A stretch of DNA of 64,000 nt from positions 248,001-312,000 of the forward strand of contig NZ_JACWMW010000002.1 in NCBI RefSeq assembly GCF_014773275.1. The letters run 5' to 3'. Shown one piece after another: positions 2,773 to 15,349 of the stretch (within the stretch, counting starts at the first letter, position 1; each line of letters begins with the position of its first letter). The notes under the pieces were generated by a model. That model worked only from the letters and a program-made list of their open reading frames with translations, did not search any database and was not told the origin of the DNA. Origin of the DNA: Mucilaginibacter rigui (GTDB lineage Bacteria > Bacteroidota > Bacteroidia > Sphingobacteriales > Sphingobacteriaceae). The position numbers and the translations under genes were made by a program.

Positions 2773-2800
2773 CGCCCCGGAGTTTTCGGGGCGTTTTTTT
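2773..2800 (+). terminator. Rho-independent terminator
   Basis: CGCCCCG-gagttttc-CGGGGCG-type GC hairpin followed by seven T residues, 33 bases after the zinc peptidase stop. Confidence 0.85.
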
Positions 2801-2845
2801 CTGCTACTGTAACACTTCCCGGTAAAGCACCGTCATGTATGCACT

Positions 2846-3505
2846 ATGAAAAGATATATATTGCTTTATGCGGTAGTAGCATTGGCACTCAACGCATGTA
2901 AAAAAGATAAAAACACCGGTGAAATTGTTATACCAGCCGACCCGATTGAAACCACACCTGTAAGCGGGGAAACCCAGCCATCATCGGCTAATATAGTTTA
3001 CCGCAAGCTGAACATAAAACTTGGTTATAATAAACACATTTTTTTGGATGCTAATGGGGATGGAACAACCGATATAAGTTTTTCGAGCGTACTGATTATG
3101 CATGACGGGAAACAACATTTATACTTGTCCGCTTACGGAAAAACCAATAGTGGCAACAAACTATTTGTAAAAAACGGAGAACAGTTGGTTAACGGTAGTT
3201 TATGGGCATATCCTTTCAATAAAAACGAATTAATTGAGCCGACCGAAGAAAACAATATTAAATGGACATCAAATCAGCAAAAAGCCTCTATTGTGAGTAT
3301 TGTTTCTGCCGGATCGCAAACCACAGTTGAAGGCTTATGGGCAAACAAAGCCGATAAATATTTAGGCATCGCCCTAAAAATTAATGGTGAACCTTATTTT
3401 GGATGGATAAAATTAAGCCACGAAACTACTACAAATGAAATTATAGTAAGCGAGTATGCTTACAGCAAAATACCTGGCGGCGAAATTATTGCAGGCGAAA
3501 AATAA
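2846..3505 (+). CDS. Predicted lipoprotein of unknown function
   Basis: A 219-residue protein with a lipoprotein signal: a short basic start (M-K-R-Y), a hydrophobic stretch, then the lipobox L-N-A-C with Cys18 and following K-K-D-K. This predicts a lipid anchor in the outer or inner membrane. The mature part is mostly beta-strand-like and contains D-A-N-G-D-G-T-T-D at about residues 68-76, which resembles the Asp-rich D-x-N-G-D-G-x-x-D calcium loops seen in secreted Bacteroidota proteins. I do not recognise a named family. It is monocistronic and faces the dusB-apaG pair. Confidence 0.72.
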   Translation: MKRYILLYAVVALALNACKKDKNTGEIVIPADPIETTPVSGETQPSSANIVYRKLNIKLGYNKHIFLDANGDGTTDISFSSVLIMHDGKQHLYLSAYGKTNSGNKLFVKNGEQLVNGSLWAYPFNKNELIEPTEENNIKWTSNQQKASIVSIVSAGSQTTVEGLWANKADKYLGIALKINGEPYFGWIKLSHETTTNEIIVSEYAYSKIPGGEIIAGEK

Positions 3506-7221: not shown

Positions 7222-8112
7222 ATGACTTTTCATAAAGAAGGATATACATCACTTGCATTAACGGTGCTGTTCATTTTTGTATTGAACGCACTTATCTCAT
7301 TTTATTTCCCGGATGCGCATGTTGTAAAATGGATAGTTTACATCCTGTCGTTTTTGCTTTTTTTAATCATTGTACAGTTTTTCCGCAGTCCCATACTACA
7401 TATCAGCAAAAATGAATCGCATGTACTATGCCCTGCAGATGGCAAGGTGGTGGTAATTGAAGAAACCGACGAACCTGAGTTTTTAAAAGACAGGCGCATA
7501 CAGTTATCAGTATTTATGTCGCCGGTAAATGTGCACGTAAACCGCAACCCGATAAGCGGCGTTATCAAATATTTTAAATATCACCCGGGTAAATACCTGG
7601 TTGCATGGCACCCAAAATCATCAACCGAGAACGAGCGCACAACCGTTGTAACCGAAAACAGCGAGGGCACACAGGTATTGTTCCGCCAGATAGCTGGCGC
7701 GCTTGCACGCCGCATTGTTTGGTATGTAAAAGAAGGCGATGTGGTTGAACAGGGCCAGCAATTTGGCTTTATTAAATTTGGGTCGAGGGTGGATATTTTC
7801 CTGCCGCTGGGCACCAAAATAAACGTTGAACTTAACCAGGTTGTTAAGGGCGGGCGCACTGTACTGGCCGAATTAACCAACAACGTAGCATTACCCGATG
7901 AAACATCGGATGTTGTTAACGAAACCATCCCTGACCATACCGAGCCCTTAACCGATGAACATGGTGAAGAAACATTGGTTATTGAACACGATATAGAGAA
8001 AGAGCAACCCACAGCTAAGAAAAAGCCTGTAGTTAAGCCTGCACCGGCAAAAAAACCGGCAGCAAAAACTGCTGCAACACCCAAAGCGGTTAAGAAGAAC
8101 GATAAAAAATAA
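7222..8112 (+). CDS. psd: Phosphatidylserine decarboxylase family protein with basic C-terminal tail
   Basis: Converts phosphatidylserine to phosphatidylethanolamine at the membrane using a self-made pyruvoyl group. Two membrane helices open the protein (residues 7-26 and 34-53). The core shows F-M-S-P-V-N-V-H-V-N-R, the Y-H-P-G-K-Y motif and the self-cleavage site K-F-G-S-R-V-D-I-F-L-P, with Ser188 expected to become the pyruvoyl. The catalytic part ends near residue 220, as in short family members. About 75 extra residues follow: an acidic stretch, then a Lys/Pro/Ala-rich tail (K-P-V-V-K-P-A-P-A-K-K-P-A-A-K). The tail is not needed for the known reaction and may contact nucleic acid or membrane; that is a guess. 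Confidence 0.9.
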   Translation: MTFHKEGYTSLALTVLFIFVLNALISFYFPDAHVVKWIVYILSFLLFLIIVQFFRSPILHISKNESHVLCPADGKVVVIEETDEPEFLKDRRIQLSVFMSPVNVHVNRNPISGVIKYFKYHPGKYLVAWHPKSSTENERTTVVTENSEGTQVLFRQIAGALARRIVWYVKEGDVVEQGQQFGFIKFGSRVDIFLPLGTKINVELNQVVKGGRTVLAELTNNVALPDETSDVVNETIPDHTEPLTDEHGEETLVIEHDIEKEQPTAKKKPVVKPAPAKKPAAKTAATPKAVKKNDKK

Positions 8113-8133
8113 GGTTCTCTTAAATATATTTTG

Positions 8134-8164
8134 AAGCCCTGATGCATTGCATTGGGGCTTTTTT
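8134..8164 (+). terminator. Rho-independent terminator after psd
   Basis: An AGCCC-TG-ATGC / GCAT-TG-GGGCT hairpin followed by a run of T residues, 22 bases after the psd stop. Confidence 0.82.
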
Positions 8165-8185
8165 GTTGGCGGTCTATAACCGACC

Positions 8186-8274
8186 TGTCATTGCGAGCGT
8201 AGCAATCTTCGATAGAAAAGTAGGCGATAAGCATTTCGAAGATTGCCACGTCGCTATCGCTCCTCGCAATGACA
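8186..8274. repeat. REP-like palindromic element (TGTCATTGCGAG family)
   Basis: Outer arms TGTCATTGCGAG (8186) and its reverse complement ending at 8274 enclose inner arms GCAATCTTCGA (8202-8212) and TCGAAGATTGC (8236-8246). The whole can fold into one long hairpin. The same outer sequence recurs at 15459-15491 and, reduced to its ends, at 29782-29797. Confidence 0.75.
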
Positions 8275-8309
8275 CGTGTGAAGGAAGTGGCAGTAATCTG
8301 CCTCAACAC

Positions 8310-8338
8310 AAAAAAACCCGCACTGAAAAGTGCAGGTT
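8310..8338 (-). terminator. Rho-independent terminator after rplS
   Basis: On the minus strand, AACCTGCACT-tttc-AGTGCGGGTT (one wobble) is followed by a run of T. It closes the ribosomal operon 42 bases after the rplS stop. Confidence 0.82.
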
Positions 8339-8380
8339 CTTGTAAGCTGTATATGTATCCGCCTTGCGGCGAAAAGATAA

Positions 8381-8728
8381 TTAAACCCTTTTTGACTTGA
8401 TACGAGCTGCTTTACCGGTAAGGGCACGCAGGTAGTAAAGTTTAGCGCGACGTACTTTACCAACGCTGTTAACTTCAACTTTATCAATATTTGGAGAATT
8501 GTAAGGGAAGATACGCTCAACACCTATACCGTTAGAAACTTTACGTACAGTAAAGGTTTCGCTGTTACCAACGCTGTTACGTTGTAAAACAACACCCTGG
8601 TAAACCTGGATACGTTCTTTATTACCTTCTCTGATTTTATAATGCACACTAACAGTATCACCGGCCTTAAATGACGGGAAGGTATTCTTAACTACTGTTT
8701 GTTCTTCTACAAATTTTACTAAATCCAT
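8381..8728 (-). CDS. rplS: 50S ribosomal protein L19
   Basis: A 115-residue ribosomal protein at the interface of the two subunits. It is recognisable by [16 protein letters not shown], the Q-V-Y-Q-G-V-V segment, [15 protein letters not shown] and the C-terminal [15 protein letters not shown]. Length is normal. It is the last gene of rpsP-rimM-trmD-rplS, here 202 bases after trmD instead of the usual tight spacing. The leader contains a perfect hairpin (8747-8769). A weak promoter-like TATATTTC lies further upstream, so rplS may be transcribed separately. Confidence 0.97.
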
Positions 8729-8746
8729 GATTTTTAGCTCTTAAAG

Positions 8747-8769
8747 CGATTTTTAACCCGTAAAAATCG
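8747..8769 (-). promoter_or_regulatory. Perfect 9-bp hairpin in the rplS leader
   Basis: CGATTTTTA and TAAAAATCG flank a 5-base loop (ACCCG on the plus strand). The stem ends 18 bases before the rplS start codon. It has no T-run suited to termination on the minus strand. It could be a structure controlling L19 translation; that is inferred from position alone. Confidence 0.5.
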
Positions 8770-8930
8770 GAGTGCAATAATAAGGATATTATTTGAAATA
8801 TAAAAACCTATTTTTAAAATTTCCACAAATTGTATTTTGTTAACAAGTTGTGCTGGTTTTTTGGTTGATTGAGTTGATTATGAGAGTGGTTTTAAACTAT
8901 GCGCTACTCAAACCAATTAACTATTCTTTA

Positions 8931-9605
8931 TTACTCCAACAGGTCGGGCCTCCTTTGTTTGGTACGCTCAAGGGCCTGCTCAAAACGCCATTTTTCTATT
9001 TCGGGCGTGTTTCCGCTTAACAGTATGTCGGGCACTTTATGCCCGTTCCAATCGGCAGGGCGTGTATAAACAGGTGCATCCAGCATATCATCCTGGAAAG
9101 AATCAGACAGGGCCGAAGTCTCGTCGTTCAATACGCCGGGTATCAGCCTCACTACGGCATCAACCAGCACCGCTGCGGGCAGTTCACCGCCCGAGAGTAC
9201 ATAATCACCTATCGAGATCTCGCGTGTAACGTAGATGTCGCGGATGCGTTGGTCAATCCCTTTATAATGGCCGCAAAGTATAATGACGTTTTTTTTGATG
9301 GATAGCTGATTAGCTATATTTTGGTTCAGTGTTTCACCATCGGGGCTCATGAAAATAATCTCGTCATATTCGCGCTCGCCTTTTAGTTTCTCTATACAAG
9401 CCGCAAATGGTTGTATGGTCATCACCATACCGCTGCCACCACCATAAGGGTAATCGTCAACACTTTTTTGCTTGCCGGTGGCATAATCGCGCAGGTTATG
9501 CACCACAATTTCTGCAACGCCCTTTTTTTGCGCACGCTGTAAAATAGAATGGGCAAAGGGGCTTTCTAACAAACCGGGCAAAACAGAGATGATATCAAAA
9601 CGCAT
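8931..9605 (-). CDS. trmD: tRNA (guanine-37-N1)-methyltransferase
   Basis: A 224-residue SPOUT methyltransferase that methylates G37 next to the anticodon and so prevents frameshifting. The trefoil-knot motifs are all visible: [23 protein letters not shown], and [15 protein letters not shown], which together form the S-adenosylmethionine pocket. The N-terminal Y-P-Y-G-G-G-S-G-M is also standard. TATCTTTG lies four bases before the ATG and could be a -7 element of a nearly leaderless transcript, but no good -33 partner is present. In most bacteria it directly follows rimM; here about 2.3 kb intervenes. Confidence 0.96.
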
Positions 9606-9627
9606 TGGGCAAAGATACTTTTATTAG

Positions 9628-9702
9628 AAGCAAGAGTAAAGAATCAAGAACCAAGATTTTTTCCCTTCATCTTGATTCCTGATTCTAAAAGTCTTGATTC
9701 TC
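9628..9702. repeat. Inverted repeat of the AAGAATCAAGA type
   Basis: The left part reads GAATCAAGAACCAAGA and the right part TCTTGATTCCTGATTCT, with a further TCTTGATTC copy at the end. The element fills the spacer between trmD and the VOC gene. It resembles the arms around the terminator at 40113-40260. Confidence 0.5.
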
Positions 9703-10086
9703 CCCTATATCTTTTTCTGTATTTGCCAGCAATGGCCAAAAATGTCGATGATCGCCCTGGCGGTAGCCATAGTCGAAGTCCTGTACAGGCGAGGTGATCT
9801 TAGCTCCGGCAGCAACGGCTTGGGCAACCACGGCATCTACATCATCAACAAAAATATTTACAGATACGGTACTTGCATTCGCTCTTGTTGGACTTATCAG
9901 TGTGGTTTCCCATTGCTCATGCAAATGGAACGTTGCCCCGCCAATAGAAAACTCTACCACGTGGATACTGCCATCATCATTGCTAAAGCGGTGTACTTCT
10001 TCCGCATCGAAGGCTTTTGTGTAAAAACTTACATCGGTTACCCCATTGGGGATAATGAGCATCGGTGCAAATATTGGTGTTGCCAT
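9685..10086 (-). CDS. VOC (PhnB/glyoxalase-like) protein with frameshifted C-terminus
   Basis: A 133-codon frame of the vicinal-oxygen-chelate superfamily, PhnB-like. The N-terminus reads M-L-I-I-P-N-G-V-T-D-V-S-F-Y-T-K-A-F-D-A-E-E-V, then F-H-L-H-E-Q, N-I-F-V-D-D-V-D-A-V-V and D-Y-G-Y-R-Q-G. The family then expects x-x-x-D-x-F-G-H-x-W. In this frame the end is unrelated (D-H-R-H-F-W-P-L-L), whereas the neighbouring frame from base 9755 reads A-I-I-D-I-F-G-H-C-W-Q-I-Q-K-K-I and stops at 9705-9707. So the gene has lost or gained bases near 9754-9757, or the sequence has an error there. It is the last gene of the cassette inserted between rimM and trmD. Confidence 0.8.
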   Translation of the reverse strand: MATPIFAPMLIIPNGVTDVSFYTKAFDAEEVHRFSNDDGSIHVVEFSIGGATFHLHEQWETTLISPTRANASTVSVNIFVDDVDAVVAQAVAAGAKITSPVQDFDYGYRQGDHRHFWPLLANTEKDIGENQDF

Positions 10087-10109
10087 ATGCTAATTTAGGT
10101 AATAGTTTA

Positions 10110-10310
10110 TTAATCAACATCTTCCAGCTCAAAAATAGCTTCAACCGGTTTATTAAAAACCCGGGCTATTTTTAAAGCCAGTACGGTAGATGGCACGTAT
10201 TTATTACTCTCGATAGTATTAATGGTTTGCCGCGATACACCAATGGCCTCAGCAAGTTCGGCCTGGGTTATGTTTTTTATAGCGCGTTCTACACGCAAGG
10301 TGTTTTTCAT
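10110..10310 (-). CDS. Small XRE-family transcriptional regulator
   Basis: A 66-residue protein that is nearly all helix-turn-helix: I-T-Q-A-E-L-A-E-A-I-G-V-S-R-Q-T-I-N-T-I-E, followed by P-S-T-V-L-A-L-K-I-A-R-V-F. It ends in the acidic E-A-I-F-E-L-E-D typical of the short YozG/YgzD-like group. Such regulators commonly sit beside small membrane protein genes and repress their own operon. Here it lies 10 bases after the 298-residue membrane protein gene and 23 bases before the VOC gene. The palindromes upstream of the first cassette gene (11692-11752) are its most likely target, by position only. Confidence 0.92.
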   Translation of the reverse strand: MKNTLRVERAIKNITQAELAEAIGVSRQTINTIESNKYVPSTVLALKIARVFNKPVEAIFELEDVD

Positions 10311-10320
10311 AATGCGTTTA

Positions 10321-11217
10321 TTACAACAGGTTTAGGTTGCTTTTTGCTGAAGCCACATCCGGTTTCCGGATTTTGTATAATCGATAGTGAAATACTATTA
10401 AAAAAATGGCCGGGATAGTAACAAAGTTGAAGGCCATAACAAATAAAAAGTCGGTGCTGTAAAAAGCAAAATTTGCTATCAATAATATAATGTAGTTTGC
10501 ATACACCGAAAGTTGCATAGCCTCGAGTCTTATAGCGCTAATATACTCGTCTTCCTGTTTTTCTTTAGAGAATACCCATATTAACATTGGTAAGGGCAGT
10601 GTATAAAACAGCCAGGTGATATCTTCGCGCTTAATGCTTTGAGCTATTATCATCACAGCAAAAGCGACAGATAGTGTTTGCCCAATAAGGCGATAGGGTT
10701 TATTCGGTAAAAATTTGATAGTTTTTATTTCGTACTCATCGTTACGTTTATATAAAAGGTAATAAAAACGAGCCATAAAAATAACCAATGGCGTAAACAA
10801 ATTATAAGTCATAAAGGTAAAGCCACTGGCAATAACTTCAATCGCCTTCTCGATCAATCGCAATTGCAAAACATTATTTATGGCTGCTGTAATTAAAAAC
10901 ATCGCGTACATAACATAATTAGCCAATATGGCCCAATACAAAGCATTAAGCCTAATGTTCGCCGTTAGTTCATCTTCTAATTTCTGCTTGCTAAACGCGA
11001 TGAAAATTAAGCCGCCTACTACCAATGTTAAGGCAAGTTCATTTGTAAAATTTTCGTAAGCGGGTAAAAATAATTGGCTCTGCTCTCTAAGCTGCATACC
11101 AAAACCCGGAATTTTGTAGTCGTTATAAACAACCATATAGCCAAGTACAAAGCCTGGCAATGCCAAAAGCCATCCGAATAGCCTAAAGCGGTGGGGAAAT
11201 AATAATCGTGATTTCAT
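10321..11217 (-). CDS. Membrane protein with two copies of an FSKxKxEDE unit
   Basis: A 298-residue integral membrane protein with about eight hydrophobic segments and no family that I recognise. It is an internal duplication. Residues 75-101 read F-S-K-Q-K-L-E-D-E...I-R-L-N-A-L...A-N-Y and residues 216-242 read F-S-K-E-K-Q-E-D-E...I-R-L-E-A-M...A-N-Y. Each unit ends in a P-x-x-F helix followed by a basic tail. The next gene upstream encodes a single copy of the same unit. The start codon context is identical to that of the upstream gene, which supports 11217 as the start. The charged motif would lie between two helices, probably on the cytoplasmic side. Confidence 0.85.
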   Translation of the reverse strand: MKSRLLFPHRFRLFGWLLALPGFVLGYMVVYNDYKIPGFGMQLREQSQLFLPAYENFTNELALTLVVGGLIFIAFSKQKLEDELTANIRLNALYWAILANYVMYAMFLITAAINNVLQLRLIEKAIEVIASGFTFMTYNLFTPLVIFMARFYYLLYKRNDEYEIKTIKFLPNKPYRLIGQTLSVAFAVMIIAQSIKREDITWLFYTLPLPMLIWVFSKEKQEDEYISAIRLEAMQLSVYANYIILLIANFAFYSTDFLFVMAFNFVTIPAIFLIVFHYRLYKIRKPDVASAKSNLNLL

Positions 11218-11244
11218 AATTGTAAAGTTTAATGGTGTACATTA

Positions 11245-11688
11245 TTATGATAAGTCAACTTCTTTTGCAGCGTCCCTGTTAAGGCGGAAGATCATCCAGC
11301 GAAAGCGGATAATAAAGAATATCAGTGGCGCCCATACCGCTGTTAAGATTATATACATCAACTCAATTGTATTGGTAAATACAACACAAATGGCCAGTAT
11401 AAAATAATTTAAATATACCGCCCACTGTAATGATTCCAACCTGATGAGCGAGATATGCTCATCTTCTATTTTTTCTTTAGAGAAGGCGATAAATATCAAT
11501 CCGAAAAGCAACAGCAAAGCGGTAGTGTCATGCGAGAGCTTCATTCCCGGCTGTGCGTCATGATGCAACTCCTGTGCAAAACCATGCGGATGCAGAATTT
11601 TAAAAGCAATGGCAAATAGAACAACCGCTATAAAACAGAAGTACCCTATCCTTCGATAATAATGTGGAAACAAAAACCGTGATTTCAT
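11245..11688 (-). CDS. Membrane protein with one FSKEKxEDE unit
   Basis: A 147-residue membrane protein with four hydrophobic segments. The shared motif is at residues 69-95 (F-S-K-E-K-I-E-D-E...I-R-L-E-S-L-Q-W-A-V-Y-L-N-Y). It is clearly related to each half of the downstream 298-residue protein. An ATG 63 bases upstream is possible, but the start at 11688 is favoured for two reasons: both proteins then begin M-K-S-R, and the roughly 24 bases around the start codon are identical in the two genes. It is the first gene of the cassette and is preceded by nested palindromes. Function unknown. Confidence 0.82.
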   Translation of the reverse strand: MKSRFLFPHYYRRIGYFCFIAVVLFAIAFKILHPHGFAQELHHDAQPGMKLSHDTTALLLLFGLIFIAFSKEKIEDEHISLIRLESLQWAVYLNYFILAICVVFTNTIELMYIILTAVWAPLIFFIIRFRWMIFRLNRDAAKEVDLS

Positions 11689-11691
11689 AAT

Positions 11692-11752
11692 TGTAAAGTT
11701 TGATTTACCAAATGTAAAACAAACTTTACAAATGTCAAATATATTTGACATT
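11692..11752 (-). promoter_or_regulatory. Nested palindromes upstream of the XRE/membrane cassette
   Basis: Two dyads lie directly before the first cassette gene. TGTAAAGTTTG (11692-11702) and CAAACTTTACA (11720-11730) are perfect 11-base arms. Bases 11731-11752 form a perfect 22-base palindrome with TATATTTG inside it, matching the Bacteroidota -7 pattern TAnnTTTG on both strands. No good -33 TTG is seen on the minus strand. A regulator binding here would cover the promoter; the cassette's own XRE protein is the natural candidate. Confidence 0.6.
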
Positions 11753-11809
11753 TTTTTTATCTATTAAAGTTTCCTTGCAAAGGAGGAATAAAAGCGGCCT
11801 TTATAAAAC

Positions 11810-11851
11810 AAAAAAGGCGCTAAAACTGCAAATTATGTGCGTCTTAGCGTC
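11810..11851 (-). terminator. Terminator after rimM
   Basis: On the minus strand GACGCTAAGAC-GC pairs with GC-AGTTTTAGCGCC (one mismatch, one bulge), followed by six T residues. It separates the rpsP-rimM transcript from the inserted cassette. Confidence 0.65.
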
Positions 11852-11876
11852 TCTGCCTGAAAAAAACCCGATTATG

Positions 11877-12404
11877 TTATCCCTCTAAATAAACATCCAG
11901 CAAACCGTCCGGCAAGGCAATATAAATCTCGCCGCCTTCTACGTCAATTCCTTTTATGATCTCTACATTCAGCGGGAACAGTACCTCTTTATTTTTAAAA
12001 TTTACAGATGCGATAAGCTGCTGCGGATATTCAACTACATCCAGTATCTCGCCCAGTTCACCGTGTGTTTCATCAACCGCAATAAAGCCTTTTACATCTT
12101 TAAGGGTAAACTCTTCTTTCTTCTTTTTAGGCTTTACCTTGTTAGGCAGGTAGATGTCCTTTTTTACCAGCATGGTTGCCTTTTCAATAGTATCTATATC
12201 CTCCAGGTTTAGGTAAGCCTGGTTCTTTTGCAAAAACTTTATCGAGCTTACAAAATAAGGCACCAGCTTACCCGCAATATCCACAAATAACGATTTGATC
12301 TTGATAGCTTCCGCGCCTTCAAAATCAATATATACCTGCATTTCGCCTTTAAGGCCTTTGGTTTTTAAAATGCTGCCCAGCCTGAAACAATCCTCGGTTT
12401 TCAT
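11877..12404 (-). CDS. rimM: 16S rRNA processing protein RimM
   Basis: A 175-residue factor that binds ribosomal protein S19 and helps 30S head maturation. The N-terminal barrel shows F-R-L-G-S-I-L-K-T-K-G-L-K-G-E-M, the family's standard opening. The C-terminal PRC-barrel part includes V-K-G-F-I-A-V-D-E, the G-E-I-L-D-V-V-E-Y-P-Q-Q motif, and V-L-F-P-L-N-V-E-I-I-K. The ATG at 12404 puts this motif near the N-terminus; the ATG seven codons upstream would add an odd prefix. It follows rpsP by 75 bases that contain a hairpin. It is separated from trmD by the cassette. Confidence 0.94.
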   Translation of the reverse strand: MKTEDCFRLGSILKTKGLKGEMQVYIDFEGAEAIKIKSLFVDIAGKLVPYFVSSIKFLQKNQAYLNLEDIDTIEKATMLVKKDIYLPNKVKPKKKKEEFTLKDVKGFIAVDETHGELGEILDVVEYPQQLIASVNFKNKEVLFPLNVEIIKGIDVEGGEIYIALPDGLLDVYLEG

Positions 12405-12423
12405 AACGATACGGTTAAATAAC

Positions 12424-12456
12424 AATGGCGAAGAACCGTTGGGTTACTTCGCCATT
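12424..12456 (-). other. Intercistronic hairpin between rpsP and rimM
   Basis: AATGGCGAAG (12424-12433) and CTTCGCCATT (12447-12456) are perfect 10-base arms around a 13-base loop. No T-run follows. It could be an RNA processing or stability element that lets rpsP be expressed above rimM. Confidence 0.5.
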
Positions 12457-12479
12457 TGCTTAGAACTTGCGTTCAATAA

Positions 12480-13028
12480 TTACTCAGCGCTTTCTGCTTC
12501 AGTTTCGGTATCAGCAGCAGCTTCTTCAGCCGGGGCCTCAGTTGCTTCTTCTTCTACTTCTTCAGCTACAGGAGCATTTTTAGCAGCGATAGCTGCAGCT
12601 TTATCTTCTTTCTTTTTAGCTTCAGCAATTAAAGCCAATTTACGGGCTTCGTCTTTTGCAGCGTTAAGATTTGATTTTTTACCTGTTATTTTGCTGTCTT
12701 TTTGATCTAACCACTCAGCAAATTTAGTTTCTGCCTGTTCTTCGGTTAAAGCACCTTTTTTAACACCGCCTTGTAAGTGTTTTTTGTATAATACGCCTTT
12801 GTATGACAGTATTGCACGGCAAGTGTCTGTTGGCTGTGCGCCATTGTTTACCCACTCAAGAGTTTTTTCGAAATTGATGTCGATTGTAGCTGGGTTGGTG
12901 TTAGGGTTATATGAACCTACACGCTCAATAAAACGACCGTCTCTTGGAGCACGGGCATCTGCTACTACGATGTAATAAAAAGGTTTTCCTTTTTTACCGT
13001 GTCTTTGCAGTCTGATCTTAGTTGCCAT
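12480..13028 (-). CDS. rpsP: 30S ribosomal protein S16 with acidic tail
   Basis: The first 80 or so residues are standard S16: [32 protein letters not shown] with [10 protein letters not shown]. The protein then extends to 182 residues, about twice the length in Proteobacteria or Firmicutes. The extension has a lysine/alanine-rich helix and a final Ala/Glu tail ([15 protein letters not shown]). Long S16 tails are common in Bacteroidota. First gene of the operon; a TACCTTTG -7-like element lies about 54 bases upstream. Confidence 0.96.
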
Positions 13029-13081
13029 TCTTTTATTTTTATGTATTCAACATTGTCCCCGGAGTTCTTTCTGCGGGGATG

Positions 13082-13089
13082 CAAAGGTA
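13082..13089 (-). promoter_or_regulatory. Candidate -7 element of the rpsP promoter
   Basis: TACCTTTG on the minus strand matches TAnnTTTG. The leader between it and rpsP contains a CCCCG/CGGGG stem (13060-13081). No clear -33 TTG is present, so confidence is low. Confidence 0.35.
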
Positions 13090-13183
13090 TAAATTATTAT
13101 TTATATATAAAAGGCTTGTAATTAATTAGGTAGGGATATTTCTTACTATAAAGATGGATTGTCCGCTTTATTAGTTAACTGAC

Positions 13184-13283
13184 TCTGCTGCGCAAGAGAG
13201 GGAGCTTTTTTATTTCTCACTTCTTCGCCCTCTTTGCGCAGCAGAGAGGGTCGACCAGAGAAGCGAAGGGGGGGGGGTGAGTA
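13184..13283. repeat. Small inverted-repeat element with a G10 run
   Basis: In the 425-base gene-free stretch 13029-13453. TCTGCTGCGCAAGAGAGGG (13184-13202) and CCCTCTTTGCGCAGCAGA (13228-13245) are near-perfect arms. They are followed by GAGAGGGTCG and then ten consecutive G residues (13268-13277) and TGAGTA. GAGAGGGTCG and GGGGTGAGTA also occur in the element at 32133-32248. A 64-codon minus-strand frame here is mere repeat. Bases 13284-13453 show nothing else. Confidence 0.65.
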
Positions 13284-13453
13284 GACCCACATATACATTG
13301 ATGCATCGCTTAAAAATATTTTCGCTATTTTTTGTAACAAGAATAATTCACCGGCATCATAATATCACTATATAGCCAAGGTCTTATAAAGCTATAAGTT
13401 ATTGTGAGGAGCCCGCACCTTAAGGGCCCCGTTAAATTAATCACTTAAACAAA

Positions 13454-15349
13454 ATGTCTGAAAATTTATTGATCCAATTCTGGTGGGTATTTCCGCTGGT
13501 GGGTGCTATTCTGCTTTACAAATTTGTATTGCGGGTATTATGTGGTATGATCATCGTTCCGGATGACCGCATTGGTTTGGTTGTTAAAAAATTTACCCTT
13601 TATGGCAGCAAACGGCTGCCCGATGGCCGTATCATTGCCATTAATGGCGAAGCCGGTATGCAGGCCAAGCCACTTGCCCCGGGCCTTTACTGGCGCATGT
13701 GGCCATGGCAGTATGTAATTACTATGGAGGCTTTTACAGTTGTGCCGCAGGATAAGCTGGGCCTTGTAAAAGCTAAAGACGGCGCCCCTATGGATATTGG
13801 CCGTGTGCTGGGCAAACCTGTGGACTGCGACAAGTTCCAGGATTCGCAGGCCTTTCTTGAAAACAATGGTCAAAAAGGCCCGCAGGCCGCATTTTTAACT
13901 CCGGGTAACTATCGTATCAACACCTTCCTGTTCGAGATTATGATGGTGCCAACTACCAGCATCCACGAAAACAAGGTGGGTATAGTAACCACGCTGGATG
14001 GTGAGCCTTTGGATAAAGGCGAAATTGCCGGCGGCTCGGTTGCCGGGCACCGTAACTACCAGGACCCCATGGCTTTCATTAAAGCCGGCGGTAAAAAAGG
14101 TTTACAGGAAGACGTTATCCTGGCAGGGACCTATTACCTTAACCCATGGTTTGCCATTGTTGAGCAGGTAGAGATGGTGCATATCCACATTGGGTATGTT
14201 GGTGTGGTTAACTCATTCGTAGGCCCCGAAGGTAAAGATACCAGCGGCGTAGGTTTTACCCACGGTAATATTGTGAAGAAATACGACAAGGGTGTTTGGG
14301 ATGAACCGCTCGACCCGGGCAAGCACCCTGTAAACATTTATACCCACACGGTTGAGATAGTGCCTACCACCAATATTGTGCTTAACTGGGCAAACAGCCG
14401 TACCGAAAGCCACGAGCTGGATAAAAACCTGTGTACCATCAGCGTACGTTCATCTGATGGGTTTACATTCAATTTGGATGTATCTCAGATCATCCATATC
14501 CCGCGTAACGATGCGCCAAAGGTTATTGCAAGGTTTGGTAATACAAAAAACCTGGTATCGCAGGTACTGGAGCCCACTATTGCCAACTATTTCCGTAACT
14601 CGGCGCAAAAAAGCGGTGTGATAGAGTTCCTGACAAACAGGTCGCAAAGACAGGAGGATGCCCGTGCGCAGATCAGCAAAGTACTGGCCGACTATAATGT
14701 AGAAGGCGTAGATACCCTAATCGGTGACATTGTGCCGCCCGAAGCCCTGATGAAAACCCTTACCGACCGTAAAATAGCCGAGCAAGAACGCGTTACTTAC
14801 GAAATTCAAAAAAGCGCACAAATTGAGCGTAAGGAATTTGAAAGCGCCAAAGCCGGTGCCGATATGCAGCCCGAGGTGGTAAAATCAACCCGCCAGGTGG
14901 AGATAAACACCCAAATGGCCGCCTCAAAAGTTGCCGCAGCTAAGGGTGATGCTGAATCGAGAGTCATTAACGCTAAGGCTGATGCCGAGAACAAAACCAT
15001 CATTGCCAAAGCCGATGCTGAAGCCAAAACTATTAATGCTAAAGCGGATGCCAACGCAACCGAGGTTAATGGTGCTGCCGATGCCGGTAAAATAAAGGCC
15101 ATAGGTTTGGCCGAAGCCGAGGTTACCAAACAAAAAACCGAAGCCATGGGTACCGAGCAATACGCTATAGTCCGCGTGGCCGAAGCTTTAGCCAGCAATG
15201 GCATTAAACTGGTGCCCGAGATTTTGGTTAACGGCCAAAACGGCGGAGGCAATGGTATGATAGATGCTTTAATTGGCAGCGAAATGCTTAAAAAGCTGCA
15301 ATGCGAAGGTGATGCTAAAGTGGTGGATGTAACGCCAAAGGCGGAGTAA
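13454..15349 (+). CDS. Large SPFH/flotillin-like membrane protein
   Basis: A 631-residue protein with one N-terminal membrane helix (residues 7-32). Four related beta segments follow, each roughly 60-75 residues, with the pattern x-G-L/I-V ... L-x-P-G-x-Y-x-x-N ... V-x-x-V-P (near I-G-L-V-V-K, L-G-L-V-K-A, V-G-I-V-T-T and V-G-V-V-N-S). An SPFH domain comes next (S-V-R-S-S-D-G-F-T-F-N-L-D-V-S-Q-I-I to about residue 430). The C-terminal coiled region contains consecutive 11-residue repeats beginning A-K-G-D-A-E, A-K-A-D-A-E, A-K-A-D-A-E and A-K-A-D-A-N. SPFH proteins scaffold membrane microdomains and protease complexes. It is monocistronic; its partner is unknown. Confidence 0.88.
   Translation: MSENLLIQFWWVFPLVGAILLYKFVLRVLCGMIIVPDDRIGLVVKKFTLYGSKRLPDGRIIAINGEAGMQAKPLAPGLYWRMWPWQYVITMEAFTVVPQDKLGLVKAKDGAPMDIGRVLGKPVDCDKFQDSQAFLENNGQKGPQAAFLTPGNYRINTFLFEIMMVPTTSIHENKVGIVTTLDGEPLDKGEIAGGSVAGHRNYQDPMAFIKAGGKKGLQEDVILAGTYYLNPWFAIVEQVEMVHIHIGYVGVVNSFVGPEGKDTSGVGFTHGNIVKKYDKGVWDEPLDPGKHPVNIYTHTVEIVPTTNIVLNWANSRTESHELDKNLCTISVRSSDGFTFNLDVSQIIHIPRNDAPKVIARFGNTKNLVSQVLEPTIANYFRNSAQKSGVIEFLTNRSQRQEDARAQISKVLADYNVEGVDTLIGDIVPPEALMKTLTDRKIAEQERVTYEIQKSAQIERKEFESAKAGADMQPEVVKSTRQVEINTQMAASKVAAAKGDAESRVINAKADAENKTIIAKADAEAKTINAKADANATEVNGAADAGKIKAIGLAEAEVTKQKTEAMGTEQYAIVRVAEALASNGIKLVPEILVNGQNGGGNGMIDALIGSEMLKKLQCEGDAKVVDVTPKAE

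Follow-up and report, generated by a model that had tools for sequence, protein, structure and literature searches.

A putative membrane-protein and CylR2-type regulator module with its own operators between rimM and trmD of Mucilaginibacter rigui

The ribosomal gene order rpsP-rimM-trmD-rplS of Mucilaginibacter rigui is interrupted between rimM and trmD, which raises the question of what the intervening genes do and how they came to reside there. The sequence analyzed, henceforth referred to as the window, is a stretch of 64,000 nucleotides (nt) from contig NZ_JACWMW010000002.1 (positions 248,001 to 312,000, forward strand). An initial annotation had described two related membrane proteins (MP1 and MP2), a small XRE regulator and a VOC protein splitting the operon on its own strand. 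Open reading frames and annotation confirmed the minus-strand order rpsP-rimM-[MP1-MP2-XRE-VOC]-trmD-rplS, with a rimM-trmD interval of 2271 nt. The core of the inserted genes appears from sequence to be the membrane protein(s) (MP) together with XRE, and with modest confidence we propose that they form a closed membrane-signalling module in which autorepression is relieved by the membrane protein capturing the regulator. The operator part of this proposal is well supported by sequence comparison; repression, capture, signal and immunity are inferred. The core genes are as follows.

11245..11688, minus strand: MP1, 147 amino acids (aa), four transmembrane helices, acidic loop FSKEKIEDE...IRLESL; the start is the conserved ATG, and the listed open reading frame begins further upstream
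10321..11217, minus strand: MP2, 298 aa, tandem double of MP1
10110..10310, minus strand: XRE regulator, 66 aa, predicted CylR2-type

Pairing of the two core genes was observed throughout the phylum. Among the best 80 loci chosen by XRE similarity alone, an MP gene lies directly upstream on the same strand in 78, and in a 79th (L280), counted as a miss, the MP is present by hand inspection. These loci span Sphingobacteriales, Chitinophagales, Cytophagales, Flavobacteriales and Bacteroidales, and 23 of the 78 pairs are located at rimM or trmD (21 in Sphingobacteriales, 2 without an assigned order). The MP-XRE gap has a median of -4 nt over 138 distinct loci and is at most 50 nt in 135 of them; one MP per XRE was found at 120 loci, two at 16 and three at 2. 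The 138 loci with MP result from a recount of 153 that held 15 duplicates between two sets, and the recount leaves out L127, L129 and L298, in which the profile detects no MP, although L127 has another four-helix protein. Relatives of MP2 occur in 72 of 301 family genomes (10 of 25 genera), and an XRE match at E ≤ 1e-12 occurs anywhere in the genome in 98 of the 301 (13 of 25 genera). The MP profile matched 42 of 395 phylum genomes (28 of 171 genera), with XRE beside MP in 25 of 30 fetched loci. Among plasmids, an XRE match at E ≤ 1e-10 was obtained in 362 records, of which the two top-scoring ones are from Bacteroidota; both carry an MP upstream and are typed as non-mobilizable. The occurrence of the pair at varied loci, which the initial annotation had proposed as a check, was therefore borne out.

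Upstream of MP1, where palindromes had been suggested, three operator-like sites were identified between 11692 and 11750, and they overlap the predicted promoter of this first MP gene.

11733..11750, minus strand: operator-like palindrome 1, TGTCAAATATATTTGACA; covers the -33 element and is conserved in relatives
11713..11730, minus strand: operator-like palindrome 2, TGTAAAGTTTGTTTTACA
11692..11709, minus strand: operator-like palindrome 3, with a single mismatch, lying between the -7 element and the start codon
11709..11739, minus strand: predicted Bacteroidetes-type promoter, TTTG-N19-TACATTTG, read from sequence

The operator consensus is an 18-bp palindrome, TGTMAA-N6-TTKACA, present in up to three copies with a 20-22 bp period 5' of the first MP gene. 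The motif count of the window itself is unremarkable (four matches with at most one mismatch, reached in 5 of 100 shuffles), and the weight of the operator comes from clustering and conservation in relatives rather than from this count. In 74 family upstream regions, at least one site (at most one mismatch) was found in 68, at least two in 47 and three in 18, compared to 0.67, 0 and 0 in dinucleotide shuffles of the same regions. Neighbouring sites are spaced by 20-22 bp, two helix turns, in 63 of 65 cases. A site is present in 57 of 58 regions at rimM and/or trmD and in 11 of 16 elsewhere. Outside Sphingobacteriales a site was detected in 33 of 49 loci (shuffles 0.76, maximum 3) and at least two sites in 8 (shuffles 0); by order, the counts are 9/9 in Cytophagales, 10/12 in Flavobacteriales, 2/3 in Chitinophagales, 8/18 in Bacteroidales and 4/7 with the order unassigned. 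As a downstream control, the 251 nt 3' of XRE contained an operator site in none of 55 off-site loci, and this control together with the shuffles led us to reject mere base composition as the source of the motif. The promoter element TAnnTTTG, which shares letters with the operator half-sites, was found in 60 of the 74 upstream regions (12.5 in shuffles), and the full TTTG-N19/20-TAnnTTTG in 20 (0.4 in shuffles). The predicted promoter of MP1 is comparable to the Bacteroides promoters tabulated in PMC6193735.

The paired site (11713-11750, at most three mismatches) occurs once in the 4.7-Mb genome, with 0 hits for the reversed control, so that XRE looks like a dedicated autoregulator. Exact single sites occur at four places in the same genome: the array accounts for two, a coding frame contains one, and the fourth is intergenic. 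A scan of the genus with the paired pattern (at most one mismatch) returned 21 places in 20 of 61 genomes and 0 for the reversed control in all of them. Each of the 20 places inspected, G695:C188 being left out, is followed by the gene of an MP or of an MP-like membrane protein, and 18 are at rimM before MP.

Two side observations concern the operator. A lone exact palindrome is located between two small single-helix protein genes (L316, 1536-1553; C6:392835-392852 of the same genome) and is either chance or a second target. At L216 and L227 the paired operator stands before membrane genes of another kind (208-225 aa, EDER or DER loop), with XRE in view at one of the two; these loci suggest a sister module type.

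The regulator matches HTH_3 (Pfam, E 2.6e-14), and its profile matched best in the PDB to 9k3w, a PbsX-family regulator (E 1.6e-22, residues 2-61), as well as to the CylR2 structures 1utx (E 2.3e-20) and 2xiu (E 4.5e-20) over residues 3-62. With about 66 aa, a single helix-turn-helix (HTH) and similarity over the whole length, it is by sequence CylR2-type. PADLOC matched it to 19 HTH-bearing models (best HTH_VI, 4.6e-12), as expected of a generic XRE protein. The protein consists of approximately one HTH domain, which leaves no space for a ligand domain.

MP1 aligns to both halves of MP2 (31% identity to the N-terminal half and 44% over 70 residues to the C-terminal half); MP2 is therefore a tandem double, and the two membrane proteins are related as initially annotated. 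The AlphaFold2 model of MP1 has a mean predicted local distance difference test score of 88.3. The acidic loop, S-K-E-K-x-E-D-E-x-I-x-x-x-R, sits at the base of the third helix and, judged from charges, would face the cytosol. Invariant columns in 24 diverse MPs are M1, L6, P8, G15, D76, E77 and R83, so that this helix 3 loop belongs to the best-kept parts of the protein. A loose form of the pattern (E/D-D-E, then R/K) fits 156 of 158 MPs.

DUF2178- and DUF6442-type membrane proteins pair with XRE regulators, and both families gave weak matches (in 2 and 1 of the 24 MPs, best E 0.012 and 0.007). Membership in DUF2178 (PF09946) was rejected because the match is below the Pfam cut-off and too weak, as is that to DUF6442, and DUF2178 has 0 matches at E 0.001 in the M. 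rigui genome. One of the 24 MPs matches the XrtN-system VIT model at E 0.00098, which is not convincing. The fold search with MP returned nothing at E ≤ 0.001, and a VIA structural second look gave a peak Z of 7.2, possibly chance for helical bundles. With PADLOC, MP1 matched AbiC only (E 0.0033) and MP2 matched no model.

Compared to the nearest relative by TrmD (L062), identity is 98% for TrmD, 96% for RimM and 94% for XRE, and 81% for VOC, 70% for MP1 and 58% for MP2. From these sequences the membrane protein appears to diverge fast under a fixed regulator. The ratio of non-synonymous to synonymous substitution rates (dN/dS) of MP2 was unusable in five of six comparisons owing to saturated synonymous sites and was 0.08 at dS 3.8 in the sixth; values for MP1 and VOC were 0.04-0.18 where computable. 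Because dN/dS is saturated or low, no positive selection is claimed.

Distant MP relatives with a degenerate acidic loop stand beside a 220-245-aa lipoprotein-like protein at L206, L207, L208, L209 and L211. Lacking XRE and adjoining that protein, these loci were rejected as the same module and are possibly a second use of the MP fold. At L088, L091, L097 and L098, a second double-MP gene without its own XRE follows XRE just before trmD. On two haloarchaeal plasmids, a CylR2-like regulator is encoded next to a small membrane protein that has a similar V-D-E-R-D-V-x-N-I-D loop, the pair being near a halocin C8-like gene in one of them (L314, a Haloferax plasmid, 868-1701 and 2790-3189); these membrane proteins have no match to the MP profile.

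In the proposed mechanism, an XRE dimer would bind the palindrome array covering the promoter of the operon that encodes it, keeping transcription low. The membrane protein would meet a signal in or across the membrane and then capture or alter XRE, with the conserved acidic loop as the likely contact. The promoter would open, and more membrane protein and XRE would be made. Comparable schemes have been modelled for CylR1/CylR2 and described for SdpI/SdpR. Because M. rigui has this paired operator at a single place, the MP probably serves as sensor and as output alike, in the way of an immunity or envelope-stress response, and the likely role is sensing something in the cell envelope.

Several observations weigh against this proposal. 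The preference for repression over activation comes from operator placement. The intergenic lone site lies ~285 nt upstream of a 171-aa protein gene and may be a further weak target. In 41 of the 61 genus genomes, several of which hold the module, no paired match was obtained; the fixed spacing is strict and would overlook weaker or single-site targets. The motif was derived from family loci, so that independent weight comes from loci outside Sphingobacteriales, and 16 of those 49 have no site (10 of 18 in Bacteroidales). Off-site family copies (n = 16) have one site in 11 and at least two in only 2. Searches with MP gave no convincing match in Pfam and NCBIfam (best 7TMR-DISM, E 0.0018, under the cut-off) and no match in a PDB sequence search. 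Finally, divergent double MPs precede trmD with XRE broken or absent at L138 and L139 (G234 and G258).

The known systems of this general kind suggest different ways to read the same parts. CylR1 and CylR2 of Enterococcus faecalis resemble the window pair in that a small XRE regulator is encoded with a small multi-helix membrane protein. They control a divergent toxin operon, whereas the window module is flanked by rimM and VOC/trmD and has its own predicted promoter as the only paired-site target found in the genome; compared by description, CylR1 has three predicted helices, whereas MP has four or a double set and its gene comes first. SdpR of Bacillus subtilis is of the ArsR type, unlike the XRE regulator considered here. 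CylR1 is needed for induction and may relay the signal to CylR2 (PMC3709268), by a route that PMC3709268 and PMC11343131 describe as not understood. SdpI is both receptor and immunity protein and sequesters the autorepressor SdpR at the membrane (PMC1626106); described in these terms, the polytopic membrane protein and autorepressor logic may work like that of the window module, as an analogy only. Conserved Xre-membrane pairs (YoaS-like and others) were noted, set aside and left unexplained by Makarova et al. 2009 (PMC2701414). They share the adjacency with the MP-XRE pair but belong to other families, and operators and mechanism are not described in the passages on them. No paper on this Bacteroidota MP-XRE module was found in searches of open-licence PMC papers; within that scope the general kind is known and the MP family, the operators and the fixed site look undescribed.

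Activation instead of repression would follow if XRE were an activator held inactive by the membrane protein, with the repeats serving autoactivation. The LytTR Regulatory Systems (LRS; HdrRM and BrsRM) offer the precedent, being widespread, autoregulated two-gene systems of a regulator and a membrane inhibitor with own-promoter repeats that are autoactivating (PMC6193735). Their regulator is of the LytTR type, whereas that of the window module is HTH_3, and in the S. mutans-type LRS the regulator is encoded first, whereas MP is first here. The direct repeats of LRS lie ~10 bp upstream of -35. The window array instead consists of inverted repeats that lie over -33 and adjoin -7 and the start codon, which is the layout of a repressor, and CylR2, as one of the two closest relatives of known structure, is also described as a repressor; an LRS-like positive loop is consequently judged unlikely. 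An ordinary transporter or envelope protein that does not signal, with XRE responding to a cytosolic ligand, would yield the same gene order and operators and would also suit a fast-diverging MP beside a conserved XRE. It is at odds with a 66-aa regulator that could not accommodate a ligand domain and with the conservation of the acidic loop, and we regard it as quite improbable. A toxin-antitoxin system, with the membrane protein as toxin and XRE as antitoxin and autoregulator, would fit the small overlapping operon, the patchy distribution, the autoregulatory palindromes and the sub-threshold matches of XRE to antitoxin HTH models (HigA, HipB-like), and PMC2701414 concedes that new toxin-antitoxin pairs may be among the Xre-membrane pairs. 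Arguing in the other direction are the 18 of 138 loci with two or three MPs per XRE, the intact (though divergent) MPs without intact XRE in G234 and G258, and the lack of any MP2 relative at E 1e-5 in 50,697 phage records, and this possibility is judged about equally improbable.

The remaining alternative concerns origin, namely that a cassette acquired recently split the translation operon and gains from ribosome-linked expression. The surrounding features are as follows.

12480-13028, minus strand: rpsP, context gene
11877..12404, minus strand: rimM, context gene
11806..11858, minus strand: terminator-like hairpin 3' of rimM, -18.4 kcal/mol (folded stretch), z -3.5
9685..10086, minus strand: VOC/glyoxalase-like gene, cargo outside the core, frame shifted near the C terminus
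9640..9686, minus strand: strong hairpin in the VOC-trmD interval, -24.4 kcal/mol (folded stretch), z -4.8
9610..9617, minus strand: predicted trmD promoter element, TATCTTTG
8931..9605, minus strand: trmD, context gene
8381-8728, minus strand: rplS, context gene

The pair was found between rimM and trmD in 51 of 84 loci in which these two genes are no more than 9 kb apart, a set partly chosen for XRE absence (40 loci), so that this fraction is no prevalence. Of 104 underlying XRE places, 79 were fetched, mostly the strongest, and three of these are partial; a stretch of G258 surrounding its MPs was added. The distribution is patchy, with at least 18 state changes on the 84-tip tree (the fewest possible on a quick tree with 23 of 81 inner branches open), and the pair also occurs elsewhere, both of which would suit a recent cassette. 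However, on the midpoint-rooted RimM+TrmD tree occupied sites fall in both halves. XRE distances correlate with those of TrmD (r 0.65) and RimM (r 0.58) over 54 occupied loci (0 of 2000 permutations each), and XRE remnants were detected at 3 of 33 sites without the pair, in a search that skipped six gaps under 31 nt. The unit also has its own predicted promoter and hairpins. Occupation of both tree halves, the XRE-TrmD correlation and the remnants indicate that the pair is old at this site; a recent cassette is thereby largely refuted and highly improbable. From these sequences, the pair is most likely an old resident of the junction with many losses, and repeated gain at the same place is not the likeliest course. 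A recent insertion is thus not supported, and the pair is present at the same place in many relatives but not in all. In G120, G170 and G284 the pair is elsewhere and the rimM-trmD gap is 15-16 nt, hence the pair also moves.

Transcription of the junction was assessed from the same features. The terminator annotated after rimM corresponds to the hairpin at 11806-11858, for which equally good folding was reached in 1 of 200 shuffles; neither this hairpin nor that in the VOC-trmD interval is listed by a consensus terminator scan, and an Rfam search of window positions 8000-13500 gave no match up to E 0.1. With hairpins on both sides and a palindrome-covered predicted promoter, the independent unit suggested at the outset is upheld. 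Within the 90 nt 5' of trmD, TAnnTTTG is present in 67 of 84 loci, against a mean of 3.9 and a maximum of 9 in mononucleotide shuffles; among the loci with the element are 24 of 33 without the module and L165, where the element is present although rimM is only 15 nt away. Because the element is found in most loci, also without the module, the rimM-trmD junction is probably a transcription-unit boundary, and rpsP-rimM and trmD-rplS may be separate units in Sphingobacteriaceae. The genes do lie between rimM and trmD, but description of them as inside an operon overstated the coupling, since trmD has a predicted promoter element; profit from ribosome-linked expression is not supported, given predicted promoters for both the unit and trmD. 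The promoter elements point to the junction as a long-standing home in Sphingobacteriaceae, presumably tolerated because it is a transcription boundary.

VOC was rejected as a part of the module, as it also occurs at the site without an MP-XRE pair in 3 of 84 loci. By sequence it is best described as separate cargo, and the four-gene cassette accordingly reduces to the MP(s)+XRE core. Its frame is shifted at 9745-9757, just 5' of the conserved (F/Y)GHxW end; in the 28 relatives listed VOC ends with an in-frame (F/Y)-G-H-x-W, and the window has the motif in another frame. The window VOC is either a young pseudogene or an assembly error.

The membrane-signalling module with autorepression relieved by capture thus remains the favored reading, and pairs of a regulator and a membrane protein that act free of a phosphorelay (CylR1/CylR2, LRS, SdpI/SdpR) constitute a little-studied signalling class. 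As a more speculative extension, which we consider possible rather than probable, the module would represent a Bacteroidota-wide, hitherto undescribed class of phosphorelay-free membrane signalling in which a polymorphic, tandem-duplicating membrane receptor is sensor, antagonist and main product of a dedicated CylR2-type repressor, probably conferring immunity to membrane-active peptides of competitors. If true, it would account for an MP that diverges fast and duplicates beside an unchanged XRE and unchanged operators. The operator of the module is sharply defined, with one paired target in the M. rigui genome, and relatives extend from Mucilaginibacter through to Bacteroidales of the rumen. 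The module raises the question of how such a small membrane protein communicates with a repressor that is little more than an HTH. For Sphingobacteriaceae, the findings suggest that transcription units meet at the rimM-trmD junction and that additional genes are tolerated there.

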